This document shows, piece by piece, positions 27,866 through 64,000 of a stretch of 64,000 nucleotides of DNA (positions are counted from its first letter, which is position 1; every line of letters starts with the position of its first letter). The notes below the pieces were generated by a model, which did not search any database, had not been told where the DNA came from, and worked only from the letters and a program-made list of their open reading frames with translations. The translations under genes and the position numbers were made by a program. Source of the stretch: Ferrimonas kyonanensis DSM 18153 (GTDB taxonomy: Bacteria; Pseudomonadota; Gammaproteobacteria; Enterobacterales; Shewanellaceae); NCBI RefSeq assembly GCF_000425405.1, contig NZ_KE384364.1, positions 110,345 to 174,344 of the forward strand, given 5' to 3'.

Positions 27866-30514
27866 TTACAGGGTGCGTTGCACTTCAACGACTTCGAAGA
27901 CTTCGATCTGATCGCCGACCTTCACGTCATTGTAGTTCTTCACACCGATACCACATTCCATGCCGTTACGAACTTCCTGTACGTCATCCTTGAAGCGACG
28001 CAGGGATTCCAGCTCGCCTTCGTAGATAACCACGTTGTCACGCAGTACACGGATAGGGGCGCTGCGCTTCACGATGCCTTCGGTCACCATACAACCGGCC
28101 ACGGAGCCAATCTTAGGCGACTTGAACACGTCACGCACTTCGGCCAGACCGATGATCTGCTGCTTGAATTCCGGAGCCAGCATGCCGCTCATGGCAGACT
28201 TCACTTCGTCAATCAGGTCATAGATCACGCTGTAGTAGCGCAGGTCCAGGTTCTCGGTATCCACAACCCGGCGGGCAACGGCATCGGCACGGACGTTAAA
28301 GCCGACCATGATGGCGTTGGACGCCGCCGCCAGAGAGGCGTCGGTTTCGGTCAAACCACCCACACCGCGACCAATGATGTTCACCTTCACCTCGTCGGTG
28401 GACAGCTTCATCAGAGAGTCGGCAATGGCTTCCAGGGAACCCTGTACGTCGGCCTTCAGGACCACGTTCAGCTCGGACACATCGCCTTCCTGCATGTTGG
28501 CGAACATGTTCTCCAGCTTGGCCTTCTGCTGGCGTGCCAGCTTCACTTCGCGGAACTTGCCCTGACGGTGCAGCGCCACTTCGCGGGCTTTCTTCTCGTC
28601 ACGAACCACGGTGGCTTCGTCACCGGCTGCCGGAACACCGGACAGACCCAGAATCTCAACCGGAATGGAAGGACCGGCAGTCTTGATCTCTTTTCCGTTC
28701 TCATCGCGCATGGCACGTACACGGCCATACTCCAGACCACACAGAACGATGTCGCCCTGGTTCAGAGTACCTTCCTGTACCAGTACCGAAGCGATTGGAC
28801 CACGGCCCTTATCCAGACGGGACTCGATCACCACGCCGCGGGCCATGCCCTCTTTGCGTGCGTTCAGTTCCAGAACTTCGGACTGCAGCAGGATGCCTTC
28901 CAGCAGTTCGTCAACGCCCATGCCGCTCTTAGCAGACACGTGAACGAACATGTGCTCACCGCCCCAATCTTCTGGAATCACTTCGTGCTGAGACAGCTCA
29001 GTCTTAACGCGATCCGGATCGGCACTCTCTTTGTCCATCTTGTTGACGGCAATCACCAGAGGCACACCGGCCGCTTTGGCGTGTTGAATCGCTTCAACCG
29101 TCTGAGGCATTACGCCGTCATCGGCCGCCACCACCAGAACAACCAGGTCAGTGGCTTGGGCACCACGGGCACGCATGGAGGTAAACGCCGCGTGTCCAGG
29201 AGTATCCAGGAAGGTGATCATGCCGTTACCGGTTTCTACGTGGTAGGCACCGATATGCTGGGTAATACCACCGGCTTCACCATCGGCCACTTTGGCACGA
29301 CGGATGTAATCCAGCAGGGAGGTCTTACCGTGGTCAACGTGACCCATGATGGTCACAACCGGCGCGCGAGGCTCGGTGGTGGCATCGGTGTCACGATCGG
29401 ACAGGATGGCATCTTCCAGCTCATTTTCGTTGCGCAGGATGATCTTGTGACCCATCTCTTCACACACCAGAGCGGCGGTTTCCTGATCGATCACCTGGTT
29501 GATGGTGGCCATGGCGCCCATCTTCATCATCACCTTGATGACTTCGGTGGCTTTAACCGCCATCTTGTTGGCCAGTTCGCCAACGGTCACGGTCTCGCCG
29601 ATCTCCACGTCGCGGGTCACTTTCTCGACCGGCTTCTGGAAGCCCTGCTGCATGGAAGACGGCGTCTTGCCACGACCACGGCCACGACCGCGTGGGCCAC
29701 GGGCGTTACGGTCCTGAGTATCGGCCGCTTTCTTCTTCTTACGACGACGACCGCGCTCGGCCTGAGCGTCAGACGCATCTTCGGCAGCACGGGCGGCAGT
29801 GGAGGTGGTGACATGGTAGTCAGCCTGCTCGCGGGCTTTACGCTCCGCTTCTTCAGTTTCCCAGCGTTTGGCGTTTTCTTCCGCCAGTCGCTTGGCCTCT
29901 TCCGCTTTCGCCTTGGCTTCCTCTTCCACCTTACGGGCGGCTTCGGCTTCCTGGGCGGCCTTCAGCTTGTCAGCTTCTTGGCGAGCGATGTCATCTTGGG
30001 CCTTCTCTTTCGTGGTCAACTTCTCTTGCTCCTCGCGTTGGGCTTTTTCTGCAGCCTGACGCTTTGCTTTTTCTTCGGCATCACGCTTGGCTTTCTCTTC
30101 CGCTTCACGCTTGGCTTGTTCTTTGGCTTCACGCTTAGCCCGTTCCTCTGCCTCAAGGCGTGCCGCTTCTTCTGCGGCCTGACGGGCTTCCTCTTCCTGG
30201 CGCTGCTGCTCATCAACGGCACTGCGTTTCACGTAGGTGCGCTTCTTGCGCACCTCAACTTGCACATCCTTGGACTTACCACCGCCGGCGTTAACGCTCA
30301 GAGTCGAACGTTTCTTACGCTGCAGGGTCATACGGGTCGGCTCGTTACTGCCGCCGTGTTGATCGGCCAGGTGGCTCAGCAGGGTCTGTTTCTCCTGCTC
30401 AGTCACGCTGTCATTGGCACTCTTTTTAATCCCGGCTTCGGCGAACTGGGCAACCAGACGATCAACCGGTTTTCCTACTTCACTGGCCAGTTTTTCAACA
30501 GTCAAATCTGCCAT
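27866..30514 (-). CDS. infB: Translation initiation factor IF-2
   Basis: An 882-aa IF-2, the GTPase that delivers initiator tRNA to the 30S subunit. The N-terminus is an IF2_N domain, followed by a long Ala/Glu/Lys/Arg-rich coiled region with near-repeats such as [18 protein letters not shown] (DNA about 30020-30190). The G domain carries [18 protein letters not shown] and NKMDKE, then domains II-IV follow. The length is similar to E. coli IF2-alpha (890 aa). It lies 26 nt after nusA. Confidence 0.98.
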
Positions 30515-30540: not shown

Positions 30541-32043
30541 TTACGCCTCGTCGCTGAACCAGCAGATGTTGCGGGCAGCCATGATCAGCTCGCCGGCCTG
30601 CTCTTCGCTCAGCTCTTCAATGTCGCTCAGGTCATCGATGCCCTGCTCTGCCAGATCTTCCAGGGTGATGACACCACGGGAAGCCAGAACAAAGGCCAGA
30701 TGGCGCTCCAGGCCTTCCAGGTTCAGAAGGTCTTGTGCCGGCTCGGCGCCGTCCAGGGCTTCCTCGTCGGCCAGCGCTTTGGTGGTCAGTGCCGCTTTGG
30801 CACGCTCACGCAACTCTTCAACCGCCTCTTCGTCCAGGCCGTCGATCTCCAACAGCTCCTGGATTGGCACGTAGGCGATCTCTTCCAGGCTGGTGAAGCC
30901 CTCTTCGGCCAGCACTTCGGCGAACTCGTCGTCGATGTCCAGGTTGTCCACGAACAGGGTGATCAGCCGGTCGGATTCTTCCTGATGCTTGGCCGCCATC
31001 TCATCGGTGGTCATCACATTCAGTTCCCACTCGGTCAGCTGCGACGCCAGGCGAACGTTCTGACCATTACGGCCAATGGCCTGGGCCAGGCTGTCCGGCT
31101 CAACGGCAACGTCCATGCTGTGGGCGTCTTCGTCAACCACGATGGAACCCACATCCGCAGGCGCCATGGCCTTGATCACGTACTGGGCCACGTTGTCGTC
31201 CCACAGTACGATGTCGATGCGCTCGCCACCCAGCTCACCGGATACCGCTTGAACACGGGCACCACGCATGCCGACACAGGCGCCGACCGGGTCGATGCGC
31301 TTGTCGTTGCTCTTAACGGCGATCTTGGCGCGAGAGCCTGGATCACGGGCGGCGCCCATAATCTCAATCATCTCTTCGCCGATTTCCGGCACCTCAATGC
31401 GGAACAGCTCGATCAGCATCTCTGGCTTGGTGCGGCTCAGGAACAGCTGAGCACCACGGGACTCAGGACGCACGGCGAACAGCAGCGCACGCACCCGGTC
31501 ACCGGGACGGAAGTTCTCCCGAGGCAGCATCTCTTCACGATACAGGATCGCGTCGGCGTTGCCGCCCAGATCCAGAATCACTGAGTCACGGTTGACCTTC
31601 TTGACCACACCGGTAACCAGCTGGCCTTCTTTGTCACGGAACTGCTCGATGATCAAACCGCGCTCGGCTTCCCGTACTTTCTGTACGATAACCTGCTTGG
31701 CAGTCTGGGTGGTGATGCGGTCAAACTTCACCGATTCGATCTGCTCTTCGACGTAATCGCCGGCGACAATGCTGTCGTCTTCGTACATGGCACGCGCCGC
31801 GGACAGAGACAACTCTCGGGTTGGCTCTTCCATCTCGGCATCGTCTTCCAGCACCAACCAACGACGGAAGGTATCGAACTCACCGGTCTTCTGATCGATC
31901 TCGACACGAACTTCGATCTCGATTTCATATTTTTTCTTAGTAGCGGTCGCCAAGGCCGTTTCCAGGGCCTCAAAAATCTTTTCACGCGGCAGTGCTTTTT
32001 CGTTAGATACCGCTTCGGCGACAAGTAAAATCTCTTTGCTCAT
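30541..32043 (-). CDS. nusA: Transcription termination/antitermination factor NusA
   Basis: A 500-aa NusA that binds RNA polymerase, modulating pausing, termination and antitermination. An N-terminal RNAP-binding domain ([20 protein letters not shown]), an S1 domain, two KH domains ([19 protein letters not shown]) and two C-terminal acidic repeats (from about residue 360) are present, as in E. coli. It lies between rimP and infB. NusA may control this operon through the two terminators upstream of rimP. Confidence 0.98.
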
Positions 32044-32071: not shown

Positions 32072-32527
32072 TCAGAACTTAGCTACCAGGTGGGCTTGGC
32101 GCACGTTTGCTAAAGCCACTTCCTGATCCGTACCTTTCACTGACAAGGTGATCATCTCGCCCTCAACGGCGGTGATCAGTCCCTGCAGCTTGCGTTTTCC
32201 TTCAACCGGCATATTCAGAAGCACGAAGGCCTCCTCACCGATGAATTTTTCATAATGTGCCGGCGTAAACAGCGGCCGTTCGATCCCAGGAGAAGACACC
32301 TCGAGGTTGTATTCGGTGCTGATGGGATCTTCCACATCCAGCACCGCTCCGATCTGGCGGCTGACTTCGGCACAGTTGTCCACTGTGATGCCATTTTCGT
32401 GGTCGATAAACACTCGCAATGTGGAGTGCGAACCGGCACGAACGTATTGAATCCCTACCAACTCAAAACCCAGGGCTTGAACCGGTTCTTGCAACATCTC
32501 GGTTAAGCGTTGCTCTAGCGTAGCCAT
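32072..32527 (-). CDS. rimP: Ribosome maturation factor RimP
   Basis: A 151-aa RimP, which acts in early 30S assembly. The order [14 protein letters not shown], then a C-terminal SH3-like domain ([18 protein letters not shown]), is typical. A very strong GGGGGAGG lies about 4 nt before the ATG. It is the first gene of the rimP-nusA-infB-rbfA-truB-rpsO-pnp set. Two terminators and a structured RNA lie between it and the nearest good promoter. Confidence 0.96.
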
Positions 32528-32546
32528 CGCGCCTCCCCCTACAAAC

Positions 32547-32567
32547 GAAAAAAGGGCATAAAGCCCT
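32547..32567 (-). terminator. rimP: Second terminator (attenuator) just before rimP
   Basis: Minus-strand AGGGC-N5-GCCCT followed by six T residues, ending about 10 nt before the rimP ribosome-binding site. It terminates transcripts entering from the upstream leader, so it can only act as an attenuator of the rimP operon. Confidence 0.8.
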
Positions 32568-32675
32568 GTTATCTAAATAGCCATACCAATAGAGGTAATT
32601 AGATGGTTTATCCAGGATACCACCATGTAATTGCCCCATCGGTGTGCTCTTAGCCAATCCCAGAGGACAGATAAC

Positions 32676-32700
32676 AAAAAGCCCCGAGCTCAAACGGGGC
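32676..32700 (-). terminator. First terminator, end of the structured RNA
   Basis: Minus-strand GCCCCG / CGGGGC stem with an 8-nt loop followed by five T residues. No coding gene lies upstream of it before the tRNA-Leu terminator, so it ends a non-coding transcript starting near 32919. Confidence 0.88.
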
Positions 32701-32919
32701 TAAAGTGCGCTGTACCCTGTTTAGGATGACTGATGTCATCGAACTGCCCACAGGGGAACAATCCACCGCCTCCGTCGCGGCCTTCTCGGTATCAATACCC
32801 ATCAAGAAACTTGATCACGGAGAGAGCTGTTGTGCGTTTCCGCACTGGCCAAAACAGGAGTGAAACCTCAACCATTTTAGCCCATGAACACCAAACGCGT
32901 CGGTCCCCATGAATCAGCG
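32676..32919 (-). ncRNA. Structured non-coding RNA or leader upstream of rimP, about 240 nt
   Basis: A strong promoter upstream and a terminator at the end bound a non-coding transcript. Perfect or near-perfect helices read directly from the sequence are: closing CGCUG (32915-32919) with CAGCG (32708-32712); GGCUAAAA (32875-32882) with UUUUGGCC (32847-32854); a GUGCG-GAAA-CGCAC hairpin (32832-32845); CUCCGU (32817-32822) with ACGGAG (32770-32775), enclosing AUCAAG-UUU-CUUGAU (32801-32815) and a GGUA-UUGA-UACC hairpin (32788-32799); and CCCUGU (32750-32755) with ACAGGG (32715-32720), enclosing GAUGAC-AUCA-GUCAUC (32725-32740). I do not recognise a known class. The site is where E. coli has metY, and a rimP leader RNA class is known elsewhere. 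No credible peptide is encoded. Confidence 0.7.
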
Positions 32920-32925
32920 GCACTT

Positions 32926-32954
32926 ATTATACTGTTGCGCCTTTATACACGCAA
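32926..32954 (-). promoter_or_regulatory. Strong sigma-70 promoter of the structured RNA / rimP operon
   Basis: Minus strand: -35 TTGCGT (32949-32954), a 17-nt spacer, consensus -10 TATAAT (32926-32931). The predicted start near 32919 coincides with the 5' arm of the RNA's closing helix. Confidence 0.75.
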
Positions 32955-32978
32955 CCCAAATGCCGGGCTGTAAACGTG

Positions 32979-33003
32979 AAAAAGGCCGATTTAATAATCG
33001 ACC
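32979..33003 (-). terminator. Intrinsic terminator of tRNA-Leu / secG transcript
   Basis: Minus-strand GGTCGATT / AATCGGCC stem with a 4-nt loop followed by five T residues, 9 nt after the tRNA CCA end. Confidence 0.9.
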
Positions 33004-33011
33004 TTTTTAAT

Positions 33012-33097
33012 TGGTGCCGAGAGCGGGACTTGAACCCGCACGTCCATAGGACACTACCCCCTCAAGATAGCGTGTCTACCAATTCCACCACCTCGGC
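33012..33097 (-). tRNA. leuU: tRNA-Leu (anticodon GAG)
   Basis: An 86-nt tRNA with encoded CCA. The acceptor pairs GCCGAGG with the 3' CTCGGC region, the D-loop GGTGGAATTGGTAGACACG and T-loop GGTTCAAGTCC are class II leucine-type, and the anticodon loop TTGAGGG gives GAG, reading CUC/CUU codons. The long variable arm is present. It lies between secG and rimP, the location of leuU in E. coli. The initiator tRNA metY that follows leuU there is absent here. Confidence 0.97.
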
Positions 33098-33105
33098 TAA
33101 ATCTG

Positions 33106-33408
33106 TTACTGCGGCAGGTTGTCCTGCACTGGCTGCTCCACTTCGATGGTTTCGAAGTCGCTGGTCACCTTGCCTTTATGGGAAGACATGTTACCGATAG
33201 TCAGACTCAGTACAAAGAACAACACGGCACAGACTGAGGTTGCGCGGGTCAGGAAATTGCCTGAACCGGTAGAACCAAACAGGGTTCCACTCGCGCCGGC
33301 ACCAAAAGAGGCACCCATGTCCGCACCTTTACCCTGTTGAATCAGCACCAGGCCGATAATTGCTGCTGCAACCAACAGGTAAGCTACCATCAAAACCGTA
33401 TAAAGCAT
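33106..33408 (-). CDS. secG: Protein translocase subunit SecG
   Basis: A 100-aa SecG, the accessory subunit of SecYEG in the inner membrane. Two transmembrane segments (YTVLMVAYLLVAAAIIGLVL and the segment around SVCAVLFFVLSLTIG) flank the conserved GKGADMGASFGAGASGTLFG loop. It follows tpiA by 6 nt and precedes tRNA-Leu by 8 nt, so all three probably share one transcript that is processed to release the tRNA. Confidence 0.96.
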   Translation of the reverse strand: MLYTVLMVAYLLVAAAIIGLVLIQQGKGADMGASFGAGASGTLFGSTGSGNFLTRATSVCAVLFFVLSLTIGNMSSHKGKVTSDFETIEVEQPVQDNLPQ

Positions 33409-63688: not shown

Positions 63689-64000
63689 GGGGTCGATTTT
63701 GGATTCGACGGGATTCTTGAAACCCAAGGTGCATGCCGAGGTGCGGTTGGCCTCGTAAAAAAGCCGCATTTAAATAGTCGCAAACGACGAAAACTACGCA
63801 ATCGCCGCCTAAATAGCGGTTAGATCGCCTACCTCCAACCCCCCGCCTATTGGGTGAGGAATCAGGTAGTCAAGCCATATAGGATCGCGTGGCGTCTTCT
63901 CCAGTAGACAAAGCGTTAAAACTAATCTGGATCGCCCTAGCAAAGCCTGCCGCTCGGCGCTGCGAAGGGTTAACTAAAAGAGTCGGCTAAGCATGTAGTA
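63689..64000 (+). ncRNA. ssrA: tmRNA (3' end outside window)
   Basis: The mature 5' end GGGGTCGATTTTGGATTCGAC and the conserved GGTGCATGCCGAG and CTAAGCATGTAGTA segments align with E. coli tmRNA. The tag frame resumes at GCA 63780 and ends at TAA 63810-63812, encoding ANDENYAIAA after the charged Ala. About 312 nt are visible; the last roughly 50 nt, including the CCA arm, lie beyond the window. Confidence 0.98.

Follow-up and report, generated by a model that had tools for sequence, protein, structure and literature searches.

The leader of the rimP-nusA-infB operon (Rfam RF01770) was described by Naville and Gautheret in 2010 as an attenuator with tandem terminators and a potential antiterminator, and NusA was named as the best candidate factor (PMC2965389). 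NusA represses its own operon and was proposed there to act on the rimP leader. The same paper calls this leader the most ubiquitous predicted attenuator, without larger conserved elements. In E. coli, the terminators t1 and t2 are positioned upstream of rimP, and mutants in which NusA-dependent termination is reduced have higher levels of the operon transcripts (PMC6511841). In the metY-rpsO operon, CspA-type proteins act as antiterminators (PMC11648934).

We analysed a stretch of 64,000 nucleotides from Ferrimonas kyonanensis DSM 18153 (the window) and compared its rimP leader with those of other genomes; 14 Ferrimonas genomes, the window genome (G000) included, form the core of the comparison. 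All features lie on the minus strand unless stated otherwise. The leader is followed by rimP (32072-32527, Pfam RimP_N and RimP C-terminal domain), nusA (30541-32043, NusA_N and KH_5) and infB (27866-30514, IF-2 domains), and then by rbfA, truB and rpsO. Its upstream neighbour is a tRNA-Leu(GAG) found by ARAGORN (33012-33097), and secG and a triosephosphate isomerase gene lie on the 5' side of the leader region. RimP shares 99% identity with the Ferrimonas sediminum protein, and the leader is 97% identical to the leader of another Ferrimonas genome (G005). At the end of the window a tmRNA recognised by Rfam (63689-64000, plus strand) is cut by the border.

The 3' part of the leader (32736-32547) matched the rimP leader family with 47.9 bits against a gathering score of 47, which is a marginal pass. 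As expected of the family, it lies directly upstream of rimP-nusA-infB, and rimP follows in 14 of the 14 genomes. The tandem terminators have the opposite G/C polarity expected of the family, AGCCCCG/CGGGGCU with a U tract in terminator 1 (32701-32673; 32701-32680 in the terminator scan) and AGGGC/GCCCU with a U tract in terminator 2 (32568-32548, terminator scan). RF01770 was called in 13 of the 14 Ferrimonas leaders, with G009 below the threshold. The rimP leader of Shewanella inventionis (L053) also falls below the gathering score despite a similar layout, so the Rfam model misses at least one rimP leader.

The upstream part, 32919-32737, reached no Rfam 15 family cut-off in either the gathering or the permissive E-value searches. 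Near the element just the tRNA and the rimP leader reach the cut-offs, the seven other permissive matches being far below, and the Rfam riboswitch models gave no match at the leader. A preliminary description of this DNA had recognised no known class and had proposed an Rfam search that included the rimP leader. This was right for the upstream part; it was wrong for the distal part, which belongs to a known attenuator family. Its suggestion of a sensing role for the RNA within the rimP-nusA-infB leader fits, given the place upstream of rimP in all 14 genomes, the rimP-leader terminator at the end and the RF01770 calls. We consider it likely that the element is the 5' leader of rimP-nusA-infB, a transcription attenuator in which a Ferrimonas-specific pseudoknot domain precedes the known rimP-leader terminator.

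Every helix named in the preliminary description was found in its place on the minus strand, by sequence and fold, as were the terminator and the -10 box. The 244-nt RNA folded with a z of -2.81, and just one of 200 dinucleotide shuffles folded as well, which upholds the proposed multi-helix structure. When the terminator was left out, z lay between -1.5 and -6.1 across the 14 Ferrimonas leaders, each set against 100 shuffles, and was modest in some of those that lack metY, such as G005 (-1.5) and G012 (-1.8). A coding reading of 32700-32919 was rejected: there is no ORF of at least 60 aa on either strand, and the 5' domain diverges freely among relatives.

The structured domain (32919-32708) is closed by CGCUG (32919-32915) and CAGCG (32712-32708). 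This closing helix, also proposed before, is present and is kept in five of the six Ferrimonas genomes that have no metY at this site; by eye, G002 has no CGCUG there, and in the other eight genomes metY occupies the position. Inside the domain we followed hairpin I (CAUGGG/UUCAUG, 32911-32883), hairpin II (GGCUAAAA/UUUUGGCC, 32882-32847), hairpin III (GUGCG-GAAA-CGCAC, 32845-32832, with one mismatch in G008, G011 and G012), hairpin X (AUCAAG/CUUGAU, 32815-32801), which lies within the long loop of the pseudoknot, and hairpin Y (GAUGAC-AUCA-GUCAUC, 32740-32725, GAUGAU/AUCAUC in G002). They recur with altered sequences in the six genomes without metY, which is a description based on hand-picked pairs, with no test. 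A hairpin stands at the position of hairpin I in all six, with just 3-4 bp listed in G008 and G011. The strongly conserved parts of these leaders are the pseudoknot region, a GGUUCGAUGA-like segment (GUUCGAUGA in all six) and AAACAGGGU-CAGCGCACUUUA preceding terminator 1.

The core of the upstream domain is a pseudoknot, in which stem A (CUCCGU/ACGGAG, 32822-32817 and 32775-32770) crosses stem B (GCCGC/GCGGU, 32781-32777 and 32769-32765). The 3' strand of stem A fills the loop of stem B, and the spacing is constant in 14 of 14 genomes: the 5' strand of B, one nucleotide, the 3' strand of A, no nucleotide, the 3' strand of B. Compensatory changes occur in both stems. Relatives have CUCCGU/GCGGAG, CCUCGC/GCGAGG or CCUCGU/GCGAGG in stem A, and ACCGU/ACGGU, ACCAC/GUGGU and others in stem B. 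Judged by its sequences, the element is an H-type pseudoknot, since two crossing helices with compensatory changes are present. The preliminary description had missed stem B, and with it the pseudoknot.

Pairing was measured on a MAFFT alignment that was built without fitting to the structure. In the 14 Ferrimonas leaders, 100% of the cells of stem A and 97.1% of those of stem B were paired; the exceptions are in G001 and G010, at the outer pair of stem B. Both stems contain two pairs each that changed on both sides. The structure tested for covariation consisted of the pseudoknot stems and seven pairs of terminator 1. It had five doubly changed pairs against 2.3 in shuffles, where 3 of 500 reached five, and its score was 0.300 against 0.187 in shuffles (reached by 0 of 500) and 0.04-0.12 when the structure was slid along the alignment, although related sequences may exceed all shuffles without any structure. 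The number of further pair types, 10 against 11.5, was below that of every shuffle. Inspecting a tree built from rimP and part of nusA, we counted about five double changes that are independent of each other: two stem A pairs swapped jointly, at least two changes of the last stem B pair and one of the fourth. The support from these few changes is modest, but it goes one way. RNAalifold, unaided, predicted stem A and terminator 1. Stem B was absent from its prediction for the Ferrimonas leaders; the method cannot show crossing helices and so cannot add it to stem A. Covariation in relatives, which the preliminary description had named beforehand as its refutation test, is present in the pseudoknot.

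The domain appears to be specific to Ferrimonas. Each of the 14 genomes has one copy of it, in front of rimP and without an intervening gene. All 14 Ferrimonas leaders show the geometry, against none of 73 rimP leaders of other genera (a set without E. coli), where 1.7 were expected by chance; the scan was designed after the Ferrimonas pattern was known, and single shuffled Ferrimonas leaders match it by chance in 1-26% of cases. In a family sample of 116 genomes, a covariance model of the domain gave a single hit in each of the 14 Ferrimonas genomes and no hit in the 102 others; in an order sample of 394 it hit four Ferrimonas genomes and no other genus, and in a class sample of 369 the window's own genome only. 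These samples overlap and the screens are of limited sensitivity: with only 13-46 candidate stretches scored per genome, they could miss distant relatives. The search of 75 other loci gave four weak matches (E 0.32 to 8.2), none of them in a rimP leader. In the open-licence literature, no earlier account of the pseudoknot domain was among the matches listed, no paper combining Ferrimonas and rimP was found, and the single paper that combines Ferrimonas and riboswitch is listed as one on MetJ. The main text of the 104-motif paper (PMC2864571) names neither rimP, nusA nor Ferrimonas.

A pseudoknot core that is conserved and followed by a terminator would also suit a metabolite-binding riboswitch, but with one gene context, one genus in the samples searched, translation and transcription factors encoded downstream and no riboswitch match in Rfam, we regard this as very improbable.

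Next to the leader, the genomes differ in metY. For the other genera, ARAGORN found a tRNA-Met gene in front of rimP at each of 73 loci, and metY lies between the tRNA-Leu and the leader in 8 of the 14 Ferrimonas genomes. The six without it (the window genome, G005, G002, G008, G011 and G012) form one clade with a support of 100/100 in the tree of rimP and part of nusA. A disrupted metY at the window site was considered and rejected: ARAGORN finds no tRNA-Met and there is no tRNA likeness by eye. Two initiator-type tRNA matches lie elsewhere in the window genome, and metY of E. coli is described as non-essential (PMC6511841). In two metY-bearing genomes, G001 and G009 (L028, L029), we saw by eye, between metY and the leader, remnants resembling decayed additional tRNA copies, with a T arm and a CCA-like end. 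G001 also has nine initiator-type tRNA matches in series, with a spacing of about 250 bases (G001:C1:1089827-1091888).

The promoter TTGCGT-17-TATAAT (32954-32926) was read in the sequence and is kept in relatives. TTGCGT/C-17-TATAAT/TATACT is present in 10 of the 14 Ferrimonas genomes, and in four of these, which bear metY, the promoter precedes metY as TTGCGT-17-TATACT. The window promoter is apparently orthologous to the metY promoter of the F. balearica-type genomes. It had been called strong, which overstates it: the -35 TTGCGT agrees with the consensus at only 3 of 6 positions, and a promoter scan of 32400-33200 reported neither this promoter nor a separate one for rimP. Since metY is missing in the six genomes, their RNA would start at the old metY promoter. 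The simplest reading of the sequences is that metY was lost once and that its promoter then came to drive the leader directly.

Such a promoter, the intrinsic terminator and the compact multi-helix fold could also suit a free-standing gene for a trans-acting sRNA, with an efficient stop at terminator 1 and rimP transcribed from another promoter. One paper names the rimP leader among the ProQ-associated sRNAs derived from attenuators (PMC5391140). We nevertheless find an sRNA gene quite unlikely. The single copy per genome always lies upstream of rimP, the region of terminator 1 bears the rimP-leader signature, the domain comes after metY in 8 of the 14 genomes, and the promoter scan gave no separate rimP promoter, though it missed the upstream one too. 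The fixed linkage to rimP and the position after metY in related genomes speak primarily for a role in cis, with a free sRNA as a possible by-product of the leader.

The candidate antiterminator strand is the motif ACAGGGU (32720-32714), which is invariant in 14 of 14 Ferrimonas leaders. In all of them it has a possible partner in the 5' arm of terminator 1 (32700-32694, GCCCCGU; ACCCCGU in G009), and this agrees with the potential antiterminator mentioned in PMC2965389. The pairing is weak, at -5.7 kcal/mol against -13.2 for the terminator 1 stem, and an A-C mismatch lies at its centre. Among 86 leaders compared, 76 fit the motif pattern (ACAGGUU, as in the Shewanella leaders shown, included) and 10 do not. 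The outer pair fits in 57 of the 76: it is A-U in 27, made up of the 14 Ferrimonas leaders and those with ACAGGUU, while another 30 have U-A, and those shown are from Vibrio and Aeromonadaceae. It fails in 19, and those shown are from Photobacterium.

In the six genomes without metY, ACAGGGU has a candidate partner of its own in the putative anti-antiterminator CCCUGU (32755-32750), with CCCUG(U)/(A)CAGGG pairing in six of six. The pairing is invariant among them. CCCUG was not found in the eight metY-bearing Ferrimonas leaders: four have the weaker CCUUG, one has ACCCU and three have no 5-nt partner. Of 50 leaders from other genera, 10 offer a 5-nt partner of some kind. The mask may therefore be due to chance, and it is at best specific to the clade. 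The eight metY-bearing leaders (L022-L029) have an extra hairpin, P0, just upstream of stem A. Its loop is GCCCGGU in six of them, GCCCAGC and GCCCGGA in the other two; GCCCGGU, which is similar to the 5' arm of terminator 1, may be able to pair with ACAGGGU. In the predicted folds P0 masks ACAGGGU clearly in G013 only and partially in G003.

We also folded partial transcripts that end inside terminator 1. In the genomes without metY, the 5' arm of terminator 1 was predicted to pair with CGGAGGC (32774-32768), where stems A and B meet, in six of six. In the metY-bearing genomes it pairs with CAGGGU in seven of eight (partly in G004; elsewhere in G013). The pseudoknot cannot form while CGGAGGC is paired with the terminator arm, and the knot could therefore favour termination.

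Comparison of the sequences established the position of the leader, the covarying pseudoknot, the conserved terminator 1 and the absence of metY from one clade; the steps of the switch we infer from thermodynamics alone. Pairing of ACAGGGU with the 5' arm of terminator 1 would allow read-through into rimP-nusA-infB. When CCCUGU masks ACAGGGU, terminator 1 would form and transcription would stop at about 240 nt. The pseudoknot probably sets the balance, either as a binding site or via the junction, since an open knot would let CGGAGGC pair with GCCCCG. The direction of control at terminator 1 is a guess. From the literature, our guess for the effector is most likely NusA, through autoregulation, with cold-shock proteins second.

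A bolder reading, tentative and on the whole doubtful, makes the pseudoknot a new, Ferrimonas-born receptor that switches the ancient rimP attenuator. Its ligand would probably be NusA or another product of the operon. The closed knot would hide CGGAGGC and terminator 1 would form; once opened, the knot would free CGGAGGC to pair with the 5' arm of this terminator, allowing read-through of the operon. With metY lost, what had been a tRNA-mRNA transcript would have become a dedicated leader RNA that has a start of its own.

The domain could instead serve processing or stability only, as an RNase III site or as end-protecting helices for the operon mRNA (and for the release of metY in relatives), with no regulated attenuation. 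RNase III cuts the metY-rimP interval in E. coli (PMC5371410, PMC6511841), and long hairpins are present, such as the one predicted between terminators 1 and 2 (32653-32573), a possible RNase III site. Still, a simple RNase III site needs no strongly conserved pseudoknot of fixed geometry, and the tandem terminators with the conserved candidate antiterminator strand point to attenuation, which makes this explanation unlikely. Similarly long folds with differing sequence stand in the place of this hairpin in the window genome, G002, G008 and G012. By eye, UUGUUAUCU downstream of terminator 1 is able to pair with AGAUAACA upstream of terminator 2.

Under the attenuator reading that we prefer, the covarying pseudoknot of fixed geometry is a concrete RNA to probe for an effector, be it NusA, a cold-shock protein or another, and the locus is a case of a leader that changed after the loss of the preceding tRNA gene. 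It can be set beside three known systems. The S15 leader (RF00114) contains a pseudoknot. Like the element described here, it is a cis-acting structured leader in a translation-related operon; unlike it, it is recognised by a model that does not match our element, and rimP encodes an assembly factor and not a ribosomal protein. The window has an ordinary S15 leader near the start of rpsO (26435-26324, 84.5 bits).

Closer is the E. coli metY-nusA-infB leader, which precedes the same operon and has t1 and t2 upstream of rimP. It is described as controlled by NusA, induced by cold and positioned downstream of metY (PMC6511841, PMC5371410), whereas the window has no metY at the site. With RF01770 as described by Naville and Gautheret (PMC2965389), the window shares the gene context, the CCCCG...CGGGG and then GGGC...GCCC terminators and the CAGGGU motif. 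It differs in about 180 nt of structure, with the conserved pseudoknot, upstream of the start of the Rfam match at 32736. Judged by these comparisons, the part for which Rfam 15 has no model, the covarying pseudoknot extension, is new, and it is built onto the attenuator family of rimP leaders, which is known.
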